From positions 1 through 23,509 of IMG/VR virus record IMGVR_UViG_3300025141_000781: 23,509 nucleotides of DNA. One strand, given 5' to 3'. Origin of the DNA: a virus. Position 1 is the first letter of the stretch; each line of letters begins with the position of its first letter. A model generated the notes under the pieces. The model was not told the DNA's origin and ran no database searches. It was given only the letters and a program-made list of their open reading frames with translations. Positions 8,656 to 16,080 of this stretch are shown here, in pieces. A program made the position numbers and the translations under genes.

Positions 8656-11577
8656 ATGTCAGAAAGAAAGTTTAAATTTGTATCACCCGGTGTGTTTTTA
8701 AAAGAAATTGATCAGAGCCAAACCGCCGCCTCTCCCGAACCCGTGGGTCCGGTTATTATAGGTCGGAGTGATCGCGGTCCTGCGATGAGACCTACAGAGG
8801 TTAACTCCTATTCAGAGTTTGTTAATGTTTTTGGTGCGCCTTATAGCGCAAAGACAACTCAGGATGTTTGGAGAGATGGTAATAAAGCGGGAACTACTTA
8901 TGGTGCATATGCAGCCAAAACATGGTTAAAAAATTCAGATAAATTAACTTTTATTCGTTTGCTCGGCAAGCAAAATGCAGACGCCACCGCCGCCGGAAAA
9001 GCTGGTTGGCAGGCTGGTCCCGGCGGAAGCGACGCCTTTGGTCTGTTTCTGTTTGCTTCGGGCACCGCCGCTGGTCGCCTGACTACCTCGACGGGTACGC
9101 TCGCCGCCATATGGTATTCATCCGCCGCCGCGACAAATTTGGCACTTTCCGGCAACACTTTTGGTCAATTCGGCGGCGAGCCCAAGCGAGCCAACGCGGT
9201 GCCGATAGTGCCAGTGAGTGACGGTGCGCCAACTTCGTGTCGATTTAAGTTATCGGTGTATGGGGACAAACCAAGAAGGTCAGACGGCAGCACCACTGGT
9301 TCATATATATTTGATTTTAATCCAAATAGTAAATTTTTTATTAGAAATGTTTTTAATACAGATCCTTCGTTGTGTAATTCAACTCAGATTGATGACTCTA
9401 ATGTTTTAGAAAAATTCTGGTTGGGTGAATCTTTTGAAAATCGCTTGTCAGATGTCGACTTAATTACGCAGGGGGCTACTAACTGCTTTGGCGTCATGAT
9501 GAAAATGCAGGCATCCGGCACCAGTAACGAGGACGGTAGTCTTTTCCGACAAGCTTCTACAAAAGCTCAAACCAATTGGTTTATTACACAAGATTTTAAT
9601 GCCGATACGAGTTCATTTGACCCTGCTAATCAGCAGAGACTGTTTAAGCTCCACGCCCGCGATGCCGGCGAGTGGACACAAAATAATTTGAAGGTCAGTA
9701 TTAGTAATATTCGATATGGTTCGCTTTCAGGGTCATACGGCTCATTCGATGTGGTCTTAAGAAAAATAGATGACACCGATGAAGTGTTGGAGGTCGTGGA
9801 GCGATATAGCAATTGTTCGTTAGATTCTTCGTCACCTGACTATGTGGCGAGAAAGATTGGAAATAAATATCTTTTTTATGATACGATCAACAATGTTAAT
9901 CGAACTATTGGGCAATATGATAATAAGTCGAAATACATGTATGTTGAGGTGGATAATTCCGTAGCTAATGGTACGCAGAACAAGGAATCTATCCCGTTCG
10001 GCGTGTTGGGACCAATTCAATACAAGTCTGCAACATATTTAAGTGCGTCCAATGAATACGGCTCGGGCACCAACGGCGCGAATGTGTGGCCGGTTGCCGA
10101 AGGACCATTTTTAAGAGGTGGTCGCAGTACAAATGGCGTCTCGGGCGCAGTTTCGTCGTCTTGCGAAATCTTTTTGGGAGACACACTGTATACACACTTG
10201 AAAGTGAATTTCCCCGGCGTGGATATTAGAACGAGCTTTACTGGCGGCGCAACCATTAATGCGAGAGATGCTTATTGGGGTGCTTATACCGGCAAGTCTG
10301 CAAACAATCCGCTTTATGCGGCGGATAATCAAGACTTGACAAAGGTGAAACCTTCTAGTCTTGGAACGTCATTTACGGCTATTGCTGGAATTACCACTCC
10401 TAGCTGGAATTTTTCGCTGGACGATATTTCGTCTAGTTATACTAGCGCAAATCGTATTGATAGTGCCTACTGGTCGAGCACTTATAGAACAGCGGGCACC
10501 TCTGTTAGTGCCAACGGTGGTTATAAAAAGGTTATTGACCTAAACTTAGCGAAATTTACTACAGTGTTTGCCGGTGGCTCTGACGGTGTTGATATTAAAG
10601 AAAAGGAGCCTTTCCGTAGCGGATTGGCTGATAATAAAACTGATACTACTTCGTATGTATTTGAAACCTATAAGCGTGCGATCGATTTGTGTGCGCACCC
10701 TGAAGACATTCAATTTAATTTGGCTTCGGTTCCCTCTTTATCAACTCCCGGTTTGACGAAGAGGCTTATGCAACATTGTGAGAATCGTGGGGATGCACTG
10801 TGCGTGATGGATATTGAAAATGGCTTCTTGCCCATCGCTGACCGCAAAACCAACGATAGTGCCACATCCACCACGGTTACAGGTGATGTAAACACGGCTG
10901 TTGGATCGATGAGGGACCGACAGCTTAACAGCAGTTTCGGTTGTGCTTACTATCCATGGGTGCAGTGTCTCGATGATGACACAAATAAGGTGGTTTATCT
11001 GCCACCGTCTGTTGTGGCTCTGGGCGTTATGTCTTATACGGATTCGGTGAAAGGACCGTGGTTCGCACCGGCTGGGTTTACCAGGGGTGGCTTAAGCACG
11101 GGTCTTACCGGCATTCCGGTGTTAAATGCAACGTTGCGACTTTCTTCGAAGGATCGGGACAATCTGTATGAAAATCGCATTAATCCTATCGCGACGTTCC
11201 CCAATGAAGGAGTAGTTGTGTTTGGACAAAAGACATTGCAGGTAACAAGATCGGCACTTGATAGAATTAATGTTCGCAGAATGTTAATTTATGTTAAGCG
11301 AGAAATTTCGCTGATTGCTGCTAATTTGTTATTTGAGCCGAACGTTCAAAATACTTGGAGTCGTTTCATTGCAGCAGCCACTCCGATGCTCATTGATGTA
11401 CAGCAACGCTTTGGTATTCAAGAGTATAAGTTGGTCTTAGATGAAACAACGACGACTCCTGATTTAATTGATCAGAATATTATGTATGCGAAACTATTTA
11501 TTAAGCCAACCCGTGCTATTGAGTTTATTGCGGTAGACTTCTTTATCACGAACACTGGCGCATCGTTTGAAGATTAA
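8656..11577 (+). CDS. 18: Tail sheath protein (T4 gp18 family), unusually long
   Basis: A 973-residue contractile sheath protein; T4 gp18 has 659. The conserved N-terminus is 'FVSPGVFLKEIDQSQ' with 'GPVIIGRSDRGPAMRPTEV' and 'SYSEFVNVFG'; the conserved C-terminal domain runs from about residue 850 ('GVVVFGQKTLQ', 'ALDRINVRRMLIYVKREIS') to the end ('AIEFIAVDFFITNTG'). The extra length lies in the middle (about residues 110-640), which in gp18-type sheaths forms surface domains that are not needed for contraction. The stretch at 8980-9240 is clearly richer in G and C than its surroundings. I chose ATG 8656 over TTG 8638 because SD GGGAGA lies 8 nt before the ATG. Confidence 0.95.
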   Translation: MSERKFKFVSPGVFLKEIDQSQTAASPEPVGPVIIGRSDRGPAMRPTEVNSYSEFVNVFGAPYSAKTTQDVWRDGNKAGTTYGAYAAKTWLKNSDKLTFIRLLGKQNADATAAGKAGWQAGPGGSDAFGLFLFASGTAAGRLTTSTGTLAAIWYSSAAATNLALSGNTFGQFGGEPKRANAVPIVPVSDGAPTSCRFKLSVYGDKPRRSDGSTTGSYIFDFNPNSKFFIRNVFNTDPSLCNSTQIDDSNVLEKFWLGESFENRLSDVDLITQGATNCFGVMMKMQASGTSNEDGSLFRQASTKAQTNWFITQDFNADTSSFDPANQQRLFKLHARDAGEWTQNNLKVSISNIRYGSLSGSYGSFDVVLRKIDDTDEVLEVVERYSNCSLDSSSPDYVARKIGNKYLFYDTINNVNRTIGQYDNKSKYMYVEVDNSVANGTQNKESIPFGVLGPIQYKSATYLSASNEYGSGTNGANVWPVAEGPFLRGGRSTNGVSGAVSSSCEIFLGDTLYTHLKVNFPGVDIRTSFTGGATINARDAYWGAYTGKSANNPLYAADNQDLTKVKPSSLGTSFTAIAGITTPSWNFSLDDISSSYTSANRIDSAYWSSTYRTAGTSVSANGGYKKVIDLNLAKFTTVFAGGSDGVDIKEKEPFRSGLADNKTDTTSYVFETYKRAIDLCAHPEDIQFNLASVPSLSTPGLTKRLMQHCENRGDALCVMDIENGFLPIADRKTNDSATSTTVTGDVNTAVGSMRDRQLNSSFGCAYYPWVQCLDDDTNKVVYLPPSVVALGVMSYTDSVKGPWFAPAGFTRGGLSTGLTGIPVLNATLRLSSKDRDNLYENRINPIATFPNEGVVVFGQKTLQVTRSALDRINVRRMLIYVKREISLIAANLLFEPNVQNTWSRFIAAATPMLIDVQQRFGIQEYKLVLDETTTTPDLIDQNIMYAKLFIKPTRAIEFIAVDFFITNTGASFED

Positions 11578-11591
11578 GGGAGAATTAGAGA

Positions 11592-12143
11592 ATGGCAGCA
11601 ACATATTGGGCAAATAAAGACTCGGTCCCCAAGAGGCAACACAGGTTTTTATTCAAATTTGGCACAAAGCAGGGCGACGGTCCTATGGAACTTCCTATGT
11701 GGGTTTGTTCGCGAGTCACGCGCCCCTCCATGGAAATCACAGCGATCGAACATCAATATTTAAATCATACTTTTAAATATCCCGGTCGCGCCAAATGGAA
11801 TAATATTTCAGTCACTCTTAGAGATCCTGGCTCCCCGGATGCGTCGGGGGTTTTATATGCGTGGATAAAGAAAGCGGGATATACGCCCCCTATAGGATCC
11901 GCCGATGAAGCCACGTCGGCTGCGACCTTTACCAAGAAGTCGTTTGCTGAATTGTTTGGTGCTGTTACGATTGAAACCCTTGGAGTAGACGACAAGGGCG
12001 CTGGCAAGGTAATTGAAAAGTGGTCGATTCACAATCCCATGATTGTAAGTATTAATTGGGGCGAAAACGATTATGCTTCAGAAGAATTGCTTAACATTAC
12101 TCTTGATTTAGCTTATGATTATGCTACTTGGGATAAAAAATAA
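11592..12143 (+). CDS. 19: Tail tube protein (T4 gp19 family)
   Basis: A 183-residue protein that stacks as hexamers to form the inner tail tube; T4 gp19 is 163 residues. Typical features are 'QHRFLFKFG' near the start, 'SRVTRPSMEITAIEHQYLNHTFKYPGRAKWN' (residues 36-66; tube proteins pair this beta structure between rings), the 'NISVTLRDP' strand and the C-terminal 'IVSINWGENDYASEELLNI'. SD GGGAGA is right after the sheath stop. Tube directly after sheath is the T4 order. A copy of ACTATTTATT lies inside the sheath gene 99 nt before this start and might provide extra transcription. Confidence 0.92.
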   Translation: MAATYWANKDSVPKRQHRFLFKFGTKQGDGPMELPMWVCSRVTRPSMEITAIEHQYLNHTFKYPGRAKWNNISVTLRDPGSPDASGVLYAWIKKAGYTPPIGSADEATSAATFTKKSFAELFGAVTIETLGVDDKGAGKVIEKWSIHNPMIVSINWGENDYASEELLNITLDLAYDYATWDKK

Positions 12144-12156
12144 GATAGAGGTATAA

Positions 12157-12987
12157 ATGTCTAGAAATGCCGAGAGGCTTGCTTCGCATAATGCGACCAC
12201 CGAAACCACACCAGCTTCAACTGAACAATCTTTAACATTCAAAGTCCCTACTAGTTTTGTAGAGCTTCCTTCCGAGGGGAAGTTTTATTCTGCTGAACAT
12301 GCACTTTGTAATCAAAACGTTGTTGAAATTAAAAATATGACCACCAGAGAAGAGGAGATATTAAATTCTCAATCTTTGATTCAGCGTGGTTTGGCAGTTG
12401 ATCGATTGGTGGAGAGCATTCTCGTAGATAAGTCTATTGAGGCAAGTAGTCTTTTGCTTGGTGATAAAAACGCAATCCTGACCGCCGCGAGAATTGATGC
12501 TTATGGAGAAACTTATGACGTAACCATCACTTGCCCTGTGTGTTCGGAGCCGAACGAAACTGTGATTGATTTGTCTTCTCTTAAGCGTAAAAATCCCGAG
12601 TCTATGGAAAATATAGAAATTAACAACAAGGGAAACGTAGTTTTGGAACTCCCCCGCACAGGGGCTGTTGTAGAGCTTAGATTTCTTACGACTAAAGACG
12701 AGGGCATTATAAACAAGTTTACAAAGAAAAATAAGAAATTAGGACTAGAAAAGATGATCACGCTTCAGTATAAACAAATGATTGTTTCTGTTAACGGTAG
12801 TGAATCTATTTTAGATATTTCCAAATTTATTGGGTCGATGCCCGCGTATGATTCAAGATTCTTACGAAAGAAGTATCAAGAGATCGTGCCTGATTTGGAC
12901 TTGGGTTTTAATTTTGCGTGTCGGCTCTGTGGCGAAGAACAGTCGCTGGAGGTGCCGATTACGGTCGGCTTTTTTTGGCCTAAGTGA
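12157..12987 (+). CDS. 26: Baseplate hub assembly / tail chaperone-like protein (gp26-like, zinc ribbon)
   Basis: A 276-residue protein between tail tube and tape measure. After a Ser/Thr-rich start, 'FVELPSEGKFYSAEH' and 'MTTREEEILNSQSLIQRGLAVDRLV' match the T4 baseplate-hub-assembly (gp26-like) family as I remember it. Two CxxC pairs, Cys126/Cys129 ('TCPVCSEP') and Cys255/Cys258 ('CRLCGEEQ'), form a probable zinc ribbon bridging the middle and the end. It stops soon after a run of seven T's (12970-12976). The coding signal continues in another frame, so a longer product may be made by frameshifting; by position it could do the job of the G/GT-type tail assembly chaperones. Sure of the gene, moderately sure of the family. 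Confidence 0.75.
   Translation: MSRNAERLASHNATTETTPASTEQSLTFKVPTSFVELPSEGKFYSAEHALCNQNVVEIKNMTTREEEILNSQSLIQRGLAVDRLVESILVDKSIEASSLLLGDKNAILTAARIDAYGETYDVTITCPVCSEPNETVIDLSSLKRKNPESMENIEINNKGNVVLELPRTGAVVELRFLTTKDEGIINKFTKKNKKLGLEKMITLQYKQMIVSVNGSESILDISKFIGSMPAYDSRFLRKKYQEIVPDLDLGFNFACRLCGEEQSLEVPITVGFFWPK
12969..12977 (+). promoter_or_regulatory. Candidate programmed +1 (or -2) frameshift site
   Basis: The zero-frame codons read GGC TTT TTT TGG CCT AAG TGA. Slipping forward one base (or back two) on the seven T's yields TTT TTT then GGC CTA AGT GAC GAC, entering a frame open to 13156. Phe tRNA can re-pair on any window of this run. A GGAGG sequence at 12948-12952 lies upstream, but at 17 nt it is further away than in well-known stimulators. 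Confidence 0.5.
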
Positions 12988-13156
12988 CGACTATGTTAAG
13001 AACACATATGTTCAGTTTTTTCAAATGAAACAGTTTGGGAATTGGAGCTTCTTTGAAGCTTATAACCTTCCCGTATCTTTACGCAACTGGTTTTATGAAA
13101 AGCTTATAAAATTAAAAGAAGAAGAAGCTGAAGCTTCAAAAAGAAAATATAGGTAG
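12977..13156 (+). CDS. Downstream frame after gp26-like gene (gp51-like; probably made by frameshift)
   Basis: This frame encodes 59 residues: 'GLSDDYVKNTYVQFFQMKQF', then 'GNWSFFEAYNLPVSLRNWF' and a charged Lys/Glu tail. The 'EAYNLPVSLRNWF' element resembles the C-terminal parts of small hub-assembly/chaperone proteins of T4-like phages. Protein-like sequence begins well before the only nearby ATG in this frame (13025), and that ATG has a T-rich leader without any SD. An earlier in-frame ATG at 12830 lies inside the gp26-like gene and would give an implausible N-terminus. The simplest reading is a gp26-51 fusion of about 332 residues; reinitiation at 13025 (43 residues) is the alternative. 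A terminator follows. Confidence 0.6.
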   Translation, partial: GLSDDYVKNTYVQFFQMKQFGNWSFFEAYNLPVSLRNWFYEKLIKLKEEEAEASKRKYR

Positions 13157-13161
13157 TAAAG

Positions 13162-13182
13162 CCGGGAGCAATCCCGGTTTTT
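13162..13182 (+). terminator. Rho-independent terminator
   Basis: CCGGGA, a GCAA (GNRA) tetraloop, then TCCCGG and TTTTT: a perfect 6-bp G/C-rich stem plus T-run, 5 nt after the stop of the downstream frame. It closes the sheath/tube/gp26-like unit. Confidence 0.85.
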
Positions 13183-13192
13183 GCTTATAATA

Positions 13193-13221: not shown

Positions 13222-13572
13222 ATGGAAAAAGTTACTTATGACTTCAATGAGGTCAGGAAACAAAAAGAAAATTTAAACGAAGAGCAGCTTAACGAATTTC
13301 TTTTTTCGCAAGTTGCTGCACTTGGTGGGGTTGTAAAGACTCTTGTTGGGATGATGGGAATGGGAAACAGTTTTGGTGTTCCAGTTAATATCAAAGGCTC
13401 CCGACAAGAAGTTCAGTCTTTCACCAGGGCATTAAAAGCAGAGCGCCGCCACATGGACGCTCTTAAAAACTTCGGGCTTGATAACCCTGCTACTTATCGT
13501 AGCAAATCACATTTAGCTCGATCAGTCCAAGGATTCGAAAACGCGACAGGCTTAAAGTGGCCTGTTGAATAA
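13222..13572 (+). CDS. Hypothetical protein preceding the tape measure
   Basis: A 116-residue protein with a predicted helical N-terminal half ('VRKQKENLNEEQLNEFLFSQV'), a short hydrophobic Gly/Met-rich stretch (about residues 34-50, 'GGVVKTLVGMMGMGNSFG') and a basic C-terminal half ('RALKAERRHMDALKNFG'). I chose ATG 13222 over TTG 13201 because the purine-rich SD GGAAGAGGAG ends 9 nt before it. Position directly before the tape measure, after the gp26/51-like genes, suggests a baseplate-hub or tape-measure partner, but I do not recognise it. Confidence 0.75.
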   Translation: MEKVTYDFNEVRKQKENLNEEQLNEFLFSQVAALGGVVKTLVGMMGMGNSFGVPVNIKGSRQEVQSFTRALKAERRHMDALKNFGLDNPATYRSKSHLARSVQGFENATGLKWPVE

Positions 13573-13587
13573 AAAGGTAATTTCTAG

Positions 13588-16080
13588 ATGCCAGACCCAA
13601 AAGATCCAAATGCCCCAATCGAAGCCGAGAAATCGGTGGAGGCGATCGACGCTGTCACCGATGCACAGAAGCGAAATACCGAAGCCGCCGATGATGCCGC
13701 CAAGGCGTCCGAGACCCTTCGCAAATTAGAAGTTGAGAGGGCAGTAGCCGAAACAAAACTCGCTGCATCACTTCAAGAGGTAAACGATCAAGTAGCCAGA
13801 AGATCGCAAGCTGAAAAAGATTTTAATAAAATCCAAACTGAAAACGCCGCTGGTTTGTCGGATCTTAATCAATTATTGAGAGCCAAACTAAACAATGACA
13901 AGGTGGCTATTAAGGCACTCGGTCAACAATCTAAAGCCGTTCAAGAACTCAACAAAGGGCAAGCCGAAGGTGTCGAGCTTACTGAAGCACAAATTGTTGC
14001 AGAGATTAAGCGCCGCAAAGTACTTGACCGCTCCACCGCAGCCCAGGAAGCTTTTTCAGACTCGGTCGTCTCGACCGGCAGGGGTCTTCTTCAAACTACT
14101 CTGGGCATTGGTCAATATGATGGCTCTCTTAAGAAGCTTGGAAACATGCTTGCAGATGCTGACACGGCTGGCGGCGGCTTTTCTTTATCGTTGGGAAAAG
14201 TTTTTAATGCGACAAATCTTAGTAACCTCGCTTTCGACGTGGCTTCATCCACAATAAATAAATTTGTAGAAGCGACTGTGATGGCTGTAAAAACTTCTCA
14301 AGATCTTTTGGGAACCATGGGCAGCGAAATGGGGATGATGGAAGATATTGATGATATTACCGCTCTTATGGATATGGCGAATGAATCTGATATAGCGTCA
14401 GCTTCTCTCGCGAATGTCGGCAGTAATCTTGTCACATTACAAATAGAAACACAAGGTTTATTTGGAAATCTGTTAAAAACAAACCCCAAGCTTGGATTGT
14501 TTTCGGAAGAAATGAAAAAGCTTGGTGTTTCTGCAAGCACTACAGGTAAATTCTTTTTCTCTTTGGGTAAAACGTTAGGTATAAAAAACGTTGAAGAAAT
14601 CAAAAAGCAACAAAGAGCGGTTGTTGAATTGGCACGCTCTTTTGGGGAATCTTCTGATAAGATTGTGCTTGATGTCGCTAAAATTACCGATAGTTATGGA
14701 GACATGGGTAAAGGCGCTGAAGAAGCTGCCAAACGAATTGAAAAAATTGGTTTATCCACCAAGGTCTCGACCGATAAGATTGTTGGATTTACAGAAAAAT
14801 TTGCTCTCATTGACAACGCCGTTAAAACAGCAACCGACTTGAATATGGTTTTTGGAAAAGTGGTTGTTTCTGGAACAGAATTGAACCAAATGTTTTATAG
14901 TGGCGGGCGTGATCAAATTTATAACAAGATGTTGGGCGAAATGATTAATAACTTTGATGAGTTAAACGCCAACACTGGCGCTGCAATTGCCAAGCGCAGA
15001 CAACTTGCAAAAGCCATGGGATTAACAAATGCCGAAATGCGAGATACTATGTCTGCGATCAGAGAAGCTGGTGGTGCAGAAGCCACTATGGCCTCCGTTA
15101 CGGAAAAAACGCAGGAAGCGGCGATGGCTGCTGACAAATATGCCCTTATCCAAGATCAAATTATGAAACTTCAGCAACAATTCGCAATTGCGATAGCACC
15201 AGTAGTTAAACTACTTGGTGGGTTAATTGGTTGGTTCAACGAGGCGGCAGAGTCGATGGGACCAGTTTTTAAAGTTATTGTTGGGGGCACGTTTATTATC
15301 GGCGGCTTTGTTGCGGGGCTGATGTTGCTGAAAAAATCCGTTATTGACGCTCCCAGCGCTTTGATCCGCATGGCCGGTAGTATGGATCACCTTGCCATAT
15401 CTACTGAAAAAGCTGCGATGGCACAAGCAGAGCTTCTTATGTTACAACGACAGAGCCAGGGAATCCCCCACGCGCCGGGGCAGATGGGGTTTATCGGTCC
15501 AGTTCAGCAACCCGGCGGTGCCGGTAGTGGCCGGGTCGGCAGCGTAATGCCCGCTGTGACCGGTAAAGGCTTGACGGCAGCTAAGTGGGGAGGCGGTCTC
15601 ATGATGGGCGCGATGGGCATTGCCAGTTCCGTCAATGCGCTCAAGGCAGCCCAGACCGAAAAGGGCATGTCAACGGGACAAAAAGTGGGGCTTGGAGTCG
15701 CGTTGCTCGGCGCGATTGCCGCTGGCTTTTTCACTGGCGGTACAGGCTGGGCGATGATTCCTGCTATTATGAGCGGCTACGGCGCTGGTAGCATGATTGG
15801 TCAAGGCATCGGCGGCATGTTTGATGATTTCGTTTATGCCGAAACACCAACCAGCGGTGGCAGAAAGGTGGCAACGGCTGTTAATCCAGACGATGAGTTT
15901 TTTGCAGCAAAACCGGGCGGCGCGATAGCATCAAATGCAGCATTTGCTGGTGGTGGTGGTCCAACAGAACAAGTGGTAACGCTAAACATTCCCGATTTGG
16001 GCATTCAAAATTTGAAGCTTAAACTCAATGAGGCAAATCAATTCGACCGCGAAATAACCATGGCAGCGGGGCTCGGCTAA
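13588..16080 (+). CDS. Tail tape measure protein (functional equivalent of gp29)
   Basis: An 830-residue protein. Residues 1-130 are an Ala/Glu/Lys/Gln-rich coiled coil, the middle is long and helical, and hydrophobic Gly-rich segments lie at about 559-582 ('VGGTFIIGGFVAGLMLL'), 668-685 and 700-745 ('VALLGAIAAGFFTGGTGW'), the usual layout of tape measures that are ejected ahead of the DNA and can insert into membranes. It ends with a short beta/helix domain after a Gly/Thr linker. At about 1.5 angstrom per residue, as a general tape-measure rule, it predicts a tail near 125 nm. It is the largest gene after the sheath and follows the gp26/51-like frames as gene 29 follows 26 and 51 in T4. Confidence 0.85.
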   Translation: MPDPKDPNAPIEAEKSVEAIDAVTDAQKRNTEAADDAAKASETLRKLEVERAVAETKLAASLQEVNDQVARRSQAEKDFNKIQTENAAGLSDLNQLLRAKLNNDKVAIKALGQQSKAVQELNKGQAEGVELTEAQIVAEIKRRKVLDRSTAAQEAFSDSVVSTGRGLLQTTLGIGQYDGSLKKLGNMLADADTAGGGFSLSLGKVFNATNLSNLAFDVASSTINKFVEATVMAVKTSQDLLGTMGSEMGMMEDIDDITALMDMANESDIASASLANVGSNLVTLQIETQGLFGNLLKTNPKLGLFSEEMKKLGVSASTTGKFFFSLGKTLGIKNVEEIKKQQRAVVELARSFGESSDKIVLDVAKITDSYGDMGKGAEEAAKRIEKIGLSTKVSTDKIVGFTEKFALIDNAVKTATDLNMVFGKVVVSGTELNQMFYSGGRDQIYNKMLGEMINNFDELNANTGAAIAKRRQLAKAMGLTNAEMRDTMSAIREAGGAEATMASVTEKTQEAAMAADKYALIQDQIMKLQQQFAIAIAPVVKLLGGLIGWFNEAAESMGPVFKVIVGGTFIIGGFVAGLMLLKKSVIDAPSALIRMAGSMDHLAISTEKAAMAQAELLMLQRQSQGIPHAPGQMGFIGPVQQPGGAGSGRVGSVMPAVTGKGLTAAKWGGGLMMGAMGIASSVNALKAAQTEKGMSTGQKVGLGVALLGAIAAGFFTGGTGWAMIPAIMSGYGAGSMIGQGIGGMFDDFVYAETPTSGGRKVATAVNPDDEFFAAKPGGAIASNAAFAGGGGPTEQVVTLNIPDLGIQNLKLKLNEANQFDREITMAAGLG

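Follow-up and report, generated by a model that had tools for sequence, protein, structure and literature searches.

A gp26-like gene of an uncultured T4-related virus probably yields short and long tail assembly chaperones by +1 frameshifting

The stretch of DNA considered here (the window) is an uncultured virus record of 23.5 kb, IMGVR_UViG_3300025141_000781 of IMG/VR (23,509 nucleotides (nt)), and the locus of interest, known here from sequence comparison, is a gp26-like gene lying between the genes for a tail tube protein and a presumed tape measure protein (Table 1). The 0 frame of this gene closes with the codons GTC GGC TTT TTT TGG CCT AAG TGA, in which a run of seven T's (T7) occupies positions 12970-12976 and the stop codon starts 8 nt past the end of the run. 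The +1 frame is open from 5' of this T-run through to a TAG at 13154-13156, reading ...FFGLSDDYVKNTYVQFFQMKQFGNWSFFEAYNLPVSLRNWFYEKLIKLKEEEAEASKRKYR, and its peptide past the run is referred to below as the T domain. A preliminary description, made from the letters of the window, had placed the T-run, the stop at 12985-12987, an ATG at 13025 and the end of the second frame at 13156, all of them exactly, and had called the +1 continuation coding-like, which its freedom from stops, its periodicity and its invariant residues now bear out far above chance. It is very probable, on comparison with relatives, that this one gene gives rise to a tail assembly chaperone in two forms, short and long, by programmed +1 ribosomal frameshifting in a contractile-tailed phage related to T4.

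The offset between the two frames is widely conserved. A first profile scan of IMG/VR took in 80 of at least 587 relatives, and in all 80 a homologous T peptide is found in the +1 frame, extending 148-235 nt past the gp26 stop. A second scan of 80 loci was aimed at more distant members to find counterexamples; here 75 have the T domain in the +1 frame, four loci are cut by a contig end (three of these are T-like in +1 and one is cut after two codons) and a single locus, L301, carries it in the -1 frame. The +1 offset is also present in immuto, Mel-JY01, SP-15, GXN1, RM378, LR756508, BRock and LIS04, the cultured-phage lineages with this arrangement numbering seven, and Flavobacterium phage immuto, Microcystis phage Mel-JY01 and LR756508 share the same anatomy at just 35-37% protein identity. 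Conservation of the offset among homologues, proposed beforehand as a check, therefore holds over ~160 relatives, and no homologue in one continuous frame was found within the window's group. For site counts, the first scan supplied 83 loci, 71 of them nonredundant, and 64 nonredundant relatives were aligned for the tests of stops and entropy. Over the first 50 codons the +1 frame has a stop in 0/64, while each of the other two frames has stops in 64/64. Base variability past the gp26 stop tracks the +1 codons, with entropies of 0.97, 0.58 and 1.53 bits at codon positions 1, 2 and 3, and the +1 peptides of 44 relatives show no variation at the residues F, F, G, L, F, W, P, R and W. Judged by these patterns, the +1 reading is under selection. 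A sequencing error or a decayed gene, for which the error-prone nature of homopolymer runs could be cited, has practically no probability left and may be taken as refuted: the identical offset recurs in ~160 contigs that were assembled independently, as well as in several complete genomes from culture, and purifying selection acts on both frames. A -1 programmed frameshift at an X XXY YYZ site, with the second open reading frame (ORF) in -1, is seen neither in the window nor in any relative but L301. In that locus the junction reads AAT TTC TTC TGG; its TTC TTC TGG loses the +1 slip site, a -1 heptamer, A AAT TTC, stands just 5', and the locus represents either a switch of direction or a sequencing indel.

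Comparison of the relatives also locates the change of frame. The +1 frame opens merely 2-8 nt 5' of the T-run in 18/71 nonredundant loci and the 0-frame stop follows 15-27 nt past the start of the run across loci, and because of this late opening and near stop the change is confined to ~20 nt around the T-run. Among the 83 first-scan loci the site is TTT TTT TGG in 71, TTT CTT TGG in seven, TTC TTT TGG in four and TTT TTT CGG in one; the second scan adds TTT TTT TAC (19 loci) and a few other sites. As TTT followed by a pyrimidine (TTT-Y) stands in frame at every first-scan site (83/83), tRNA-Phe can always re-pair one base forward in the P site, as a +1 slip would require. TTT accounts for 68/71 and 65/65 of the Phe codons at the two positions, against 78% (p = 3e-5 and 1e-7), and the site is UUU_CGN, an established +1 frameshift motif (PMC5052127), in GXN1, BRock and L083. 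The preliminary description expected a conserved T-run; a T-rich site is indeed conserved, the essential part being the in-frame TTT-Y and not the seven T's themselves. It had also left the shift as +1 or -2, of which the new frame is confirmed and the second direction disfavoured. A shift of -2 would reach the same frame with one extra residue, is permitted by T7 runs and accords with a depletion of TTC at the first Phe codon, and -2 frameshifting does occur in Mu-like phages. It is nevertheless distinctly unlikely, given that sites with a broken run allow perfect re-pairing in +1 but not in -2, as at TTC TTT TGG (L028, L046, L082, L087), and that TTC TTT CGT (GXN1), CTG TTT CGC (BRock) and TTT CTA (L003) likewise fit +1 and not -2; an E-site-adjacent hairpin, such as the one described next, also favours forward movement (PMC6321510). 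The direction is thus probably +1.

Of the 71 nonredundant loci, 54 have a Shine-Dalgarno-like (SD-like) GGAGG upstream of the slip site, between -30 and -5, where its frequency in gene bodies would predict ~1; the loci were treated as independent, with kinship ignored, in this and in the hairpin tests. It stands exactly at -22 in 41 loci, and GAG encodes Glu at -21 in 42/44, compared with a GAG share of 36% in gene bodies. The distance of this internal SD from the slip codon is 17-27 nt, so that the two are near each other only if an intervening hairpin forms. If the hairpin of the window is folded, the gap falls from 17 nt to a single unpaired nt, and after folding the median unpaired gap among loci is 4 nt, close to the 3 nt that separate SD and slip site in prfB, the gene of release factor 2 (RF2). 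Hairpins tend to be longer where GGAGG is more distant (-28, -31). Among all windows along gp26, mean folding energy is lowest in the 18 nt 5' of the run (-3.60; median -0.57), a value matched in 0/300 synonymous codon permutations among loci that preserve the protein (mean -2.50, standard deviation 0.16), and in the second locus set the minimum falls at the same position. With kinship ignored, a hairpin is present in 34/57 loci with GGAGG and 1/14 without it in the first set (p = 6e-4), and in 44/81 and 8/43, respectively, in both sets together (p = 1e-4). The hairpin pair -12/-6 varies between C-G, U-A and U-G, which is not claimed as proof. Downstream RNA structure was considered as well and rejected, since RNAalifold gave none in 30 loci and folding of the 3' regions does not exceed that of shuffles. 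In an E. coli 70S system, a hairpin upstream and beside the E site raises +1 and damps -1 shifting (PMC6321510). On these sequence patterns, a GGAGG-hairpin element that acts as the stimulator is a strong hypothesis. The hairpin and T7 of the window do look terminator-like, which would suit slippage of RNA polymerase on the run and a mixture of transcripts; this is exceedingly unlikely, as the run is broken with the offset retained in 12/83 loci (TTT CTT, TTC TTT, TTT TTT C) and likewise in several cultured phages, and as the conserved GGAGG and in-frame TTT-Y point to ribosomes. It is probably ribosomes, rather than RNA polymerase, that slip.

The second frame appears to have no start of its own. 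Start-like TTG, ATG, TTG and GTG codons precede the slip site of the window in the +1 frame (at -140, -122, -56 and -41), none of them with an SD, the GTG being a by-product of the conserved Cys-Gly codons TGT GGC; the ATG at 13025-13027 has a T-rich leader upstream. In 29/83 loci this frame lacks any ATG, GTG or TTG 5' of the T-run, in L011 it is closed by a stop at -11, and the first starts 3' of the run are not conserved in position. The earlier proposal that the frame lacks an SD-preceded start is upheld in that no start is conserved over ~160 relatives, and the second ORF resembles those of the G/GT class in its out-of-frame overlap, missing start and conserved offset. Since start codons are missing or not conserved, a separate gene is no general explanation. 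LR756511 could use a separate start at a TAATG overlap, although it is open across Phe-Phe in the -1 frame as well. The second frame could still be initiated internally if GGAGG were half of a split ribosome binding site like those of T4 genes 38 and 25, in which hairpins bridging SD and AUG are used in initiation (PMC3014915). The conservation of GGAGG would agree with this, as would the start codon 3-13 nt past GGAGG in 12/57 loci and the TTG start given to Mel-JY01 by Prodigal-like annotation. We consider it very unlikely, because the other 45/57 GGAGG loci have no ATG, GTG or TTG 3-13 nt downstream in the +1 frame, because the start-less loci and the stop in L011 oppose it, because a start-capable codon is conserved at no position and because a later start would truncate conserved sequence, the invariant FFGL block starting at the shift site. 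As an ordinary initiation signal GGAGG was rejected for most loci, there being no start at a fitting distance.

The protein encoded by the 0 frame belongs to the family of T4 gp26, matching PF12322 (T4_baseplate) with an E-value (E) of 1.3e-15 and 58.1 bits, against a curated cut-off of 24.5, and phrog_150 with E 1.3e-18. AlphaFold2 (AF2) models of the short form and the T domain were built separately. In that of the short form (predicted local distance difference test (pLDDT) score 89), the two top structural matches found by VIA-align are both tail chaperones, the HK97 tail assembly chaperone 2ob9 (Z 6.0, root mean square deviation (rmsd) 2.9, 75 residues aligned) and then YqbN, 3klu (Z 5.5, rmsd 6.7, 92 aligned). 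Zinc-ribbon chains rank after these and align over residues 122-269, and the zinc-ribbon cysteines are invariant in 57 relatives and, in another set, 47. Foldseek searches of the short form against viral models give a clear match to 'baseplate hub assembly' proteins. The model of the T domain consists of three helices (pLDDT 91) and has no telling structural match; by sequence, 26/44 members match DUF6760 (PF20546) at E up to 0.1, the best at 1.8e-4. A match of the T domain to polymerase III theta (E 0.04-0.07) was judged to be chance. A sequence search of the PDB found no relative, a search of plasmids with the SP-15 protein gave no match, and tblastn against phages with just the T peptide as query gave no meaningful match, this query being too short and diverged. 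Eleven related genomes or records each carry the gp26 domain once, with one adjoining T domain and no separate long gene. The simplest reading of these data would be a tail assembly chaperone made in a short and a long form.

The gene pair was placed beforehand between tail tube and tape measure, and this position stands, the former by its match to phrog_4542 and the latter by synteny with immuto and SP-15, in which the tape measure gene is annotated; searches of Pfam and PHROG profiles gave no family match of its own for the presumed tape measure protein. One extra ORF of 116 amino acids (aa), at 13222-13572, intervenes 5' of the tape measure gene; it is without a family match in Pfam and PHROG, and other members have unrelated small ORFs or none at this position. 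A stem-loop, GCCGGGA-GCAA-TCCCGGTTTTTGC, at 13158-13186 directly follows the long form and is terminator-like by eye, though the scan tool did not list it; a similar stem-loop occurs in LR756508. The tail sheath at 8656-11577 is, at 973 aa, far longer than that of T4, and large insertions are likely because Pfam sheath domains match its C-terminal part only. A second contig, IMGVR_UViG_3300002514_001262, covers the locus with 100% identity save two N and perhaps comes from the same sample; the T7 run is therefore present in a second contig.

Table 1. Coordinates of the features at the gp26-like locus within the window
Feature	Position	Strand	Remarks
Tail tube protein, directly 5' of the gp26-like gene	11592..12143	+	phrog_4542, E 2.6e-23
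gp26-like protein, putative short tail assembly chaperone (lambda gpG equivalent)	12157..12987	+	276 aa, 0 frame
Putative long form	join(12157..12975, 12977..13156)	+	332 aa, translated with one-base skip
Domain with tail assembly chaperone fold (predicted)	12241..12504	+	residues 29-116; VIA-align of AF2 model
Zinc ribbon, in two halves	12532..12930	+	C126/C129 at 12532-12543, C255/C258 at 12919-12930; cysteines invariant
SD-like GGAGGT, proposed stimulator	12948..12953	+	17 nt 5' of slip run
Hairpin GCCGAT-TACG-GTCGGC	12954..12969	+	-7.5 kcal/mol; abuts slip run
Proposed slip site TTT TTT TGG (0-frame codons)	12970..12978	+	tRNA-Phe, UUU to UUU one base forward; next codon GGC
T domain in +1 frame, long form only	12977..13156	+	59 aa past shift; homologous peptide in all relatives
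0-frame stop TGA, ends short form	12985..12987	+	
Presumed tape measure protein, 3'	13588..16080	+	position, length and synteny with annotated tape measure genes

In the proposed mechanism, most ribosomes would read the gp26-like frame to its TGA and produce the short form, whilst a minority would slip one base forward, with tRNA-Phe moving from UUU to UUU or UUC, and produce the long form, which thereby gains the helical T domain. Pairing of GGAGG with 16S rRNA would probably push this shift, in the manner of the internal SD of prfB, as would the hairpin on refolding behind the ribosome, beside its E site. By analogy with lambda G/GT, the shared part of the two proteins may coat the tape measure protein and the T domain may recruit subunits of the tail tube. 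Several observations weigh against this account. The raw SD gap of 17 nt alone does not match the spacing at RF2 (3 nt) or at -1 sites (8-14 nt), and for this reason the explanation needs the hairpin; yet covariation in the hairpin did not beat shuffles (83/500 reach its score), RNAalifold did not recover it and 37/81 GGAGG loci have no hairpin of -3 kcal/mol or better. The Z-scores of the chaperone fold matches are middling and the corresponding Foldseek E-values against the PDB are not significant. Finally, a profile comparison of the +1 T domain with the gp51 C-termini of Straboviridae alone is not significant.

T4 gp26 and gp51 both belong to PF12322 (E 8.8e-64 and 3.9e-52) and match each other in profile comparison (E 7.5e-25), gp51 consisting of a gp26-like domain with a C-terminal extension; T4 carries two such genes and the +1 phages one gp26 domain. 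This extension is similar to the T domains of cyanophages (E 1e-9), and it is by way of these that it resembles the +1 T domains, which score 35.8 against the C-terminal or T domains of T4-type, cyanophage and jumbo phages, compared with at most 16.1 in 100 column shuffles. The gp51-like tail claimed in the preliminary description probably corresponds to the C-terminal extension of gp51 and not to gp51 as a whole. Its further suggestion, a link between T4 gp26/gp51 and tail chaperones, is supported but was not new, having been published in 2022: Vladimirov, Gautam and Davidson reportedly identified the T4 tail chaperones in that year, with a two-gene arrangement, so that gp26/gp51 as chaperones and as two genes by duplication are already known. 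A later paper is said to cite this work for poly-T -1 signals in T4-like phages, which probably cover the -1 cyanophage or jumbo cases discussed below. In a review of T4, gp26 and gp51 appear among the chaperones of hub assembly, and gp51 is described as essential but not present in particles (PMC3004832). A 2016 review treats T4 as an exception to the conserved G-T tail-gene frameshift and mentions a likely +1 case in the archaeal virus HSTV-2 (PMC5009743).

As far as checked, what appears to be new is the +1 group and its upstream GGAGG and hairpin abutting the slip site, of which a literature search, with most subscription papers outside it, found no report. The same search found no report of frameshifted chaperones in injection systems. 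Injection-like loci on genome contigs of Streptomyces, Myxococcales, Chloroflexota and Cyanobacteria (L120-L235) encode a DUF6760-like T domain, which in 98/99 is read in -1 relative to a CxxC zinc-ribbon ORF upstream, mostly right past a G-run such as TGGGGGAATCG; no start codon is nearby in 36/99, sheath and gp19 tube genes adjoin L144, and a sheath gene adjoins L148. Cellular contractile injection systems thus apparently use -1 frameshifted tail chaperones at a G-run, to go by these sequences. The broader proposition is about evenly balanced: that a large uncultured T4-related group uses a new recoding signal, in which GGAGG is bridged to UUU-Y by an E-site hairpin; that the T4 superfamily switched between +1, -1 and duplication at a homologous Phe-Phe; and that injection systems shift by -1 at a G-run. 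If the +1 group is the frameshifted state of the T4 gp26/gp51 family, the history of frameshift versus duplication becomes traceable at one site. The locus would also lend itself, as a natural and simple case, to testing how the direction of a shift depends on an upstream SD and hairpin, and for annotation the 'baseplate hub' gene of these phages would be a chaperone with an unannotated long form.

Among known systems, T4 gp26/gp51 share with the window the PF12322 family, gp51 having a C-terminal extension; T4 differs in having two complete genes where the window has one gene and a putative +1 shift. The cyanophages S-PM2 and P-SSM2 have the same gp26 family and a T domain that lies out of frame right past the homologous Phe-Phe, and the jumbo phages RaK2, 121Q, PA5oct, XacN1, RAS14 and Atu_ph07 likewise have the same family with a T domain past this Phe-Phe. 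What sets these cyanophage and jumbo genes apart is a -1 offset of the T domain, at T TTT TTC or TTTTTTAT. The gp26 of P-SSM2 and S-PM2 (L108 and L109) ends TTT TTC GNA TAA, with a gp51-like T domain in -1, and cyanophages, unlike the +1 group, have GGAGG ~10 nt before T TTT TTC, a spacing of -1 stimulators. Lambda G/GT, P2 E/E' and HK97 gp13-14 resemble the predicted arrangement in that a single gene between tube and tape measure gives, by frameshifting, a chaperone in short and long forms; in addition, the predicted fold of the N domain of the window resembles the HK97 chaperone and its T domain is related to P2 GpE through the DUF6760 group. The lambda G/GT class differs in shifting by -1 rather than +1, in that the short form of the window has a zinc ribbon, and in using downstream structure where the window has upstream GGAGG and a hairpin. 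The +1 sites of prfB and those of influenza PA-X and amalgaviruses share with the mechanism proposed here a slip in the P site, at YUU-U or UUU-C; prfB has an internal SD close to the site, the difference being that in the window the SD would be brought near by the hairpin. The sites of influenza PA-X and amalgaviruses, lastly, share an identical UUU_CGN with GXN1, BRock and L083.
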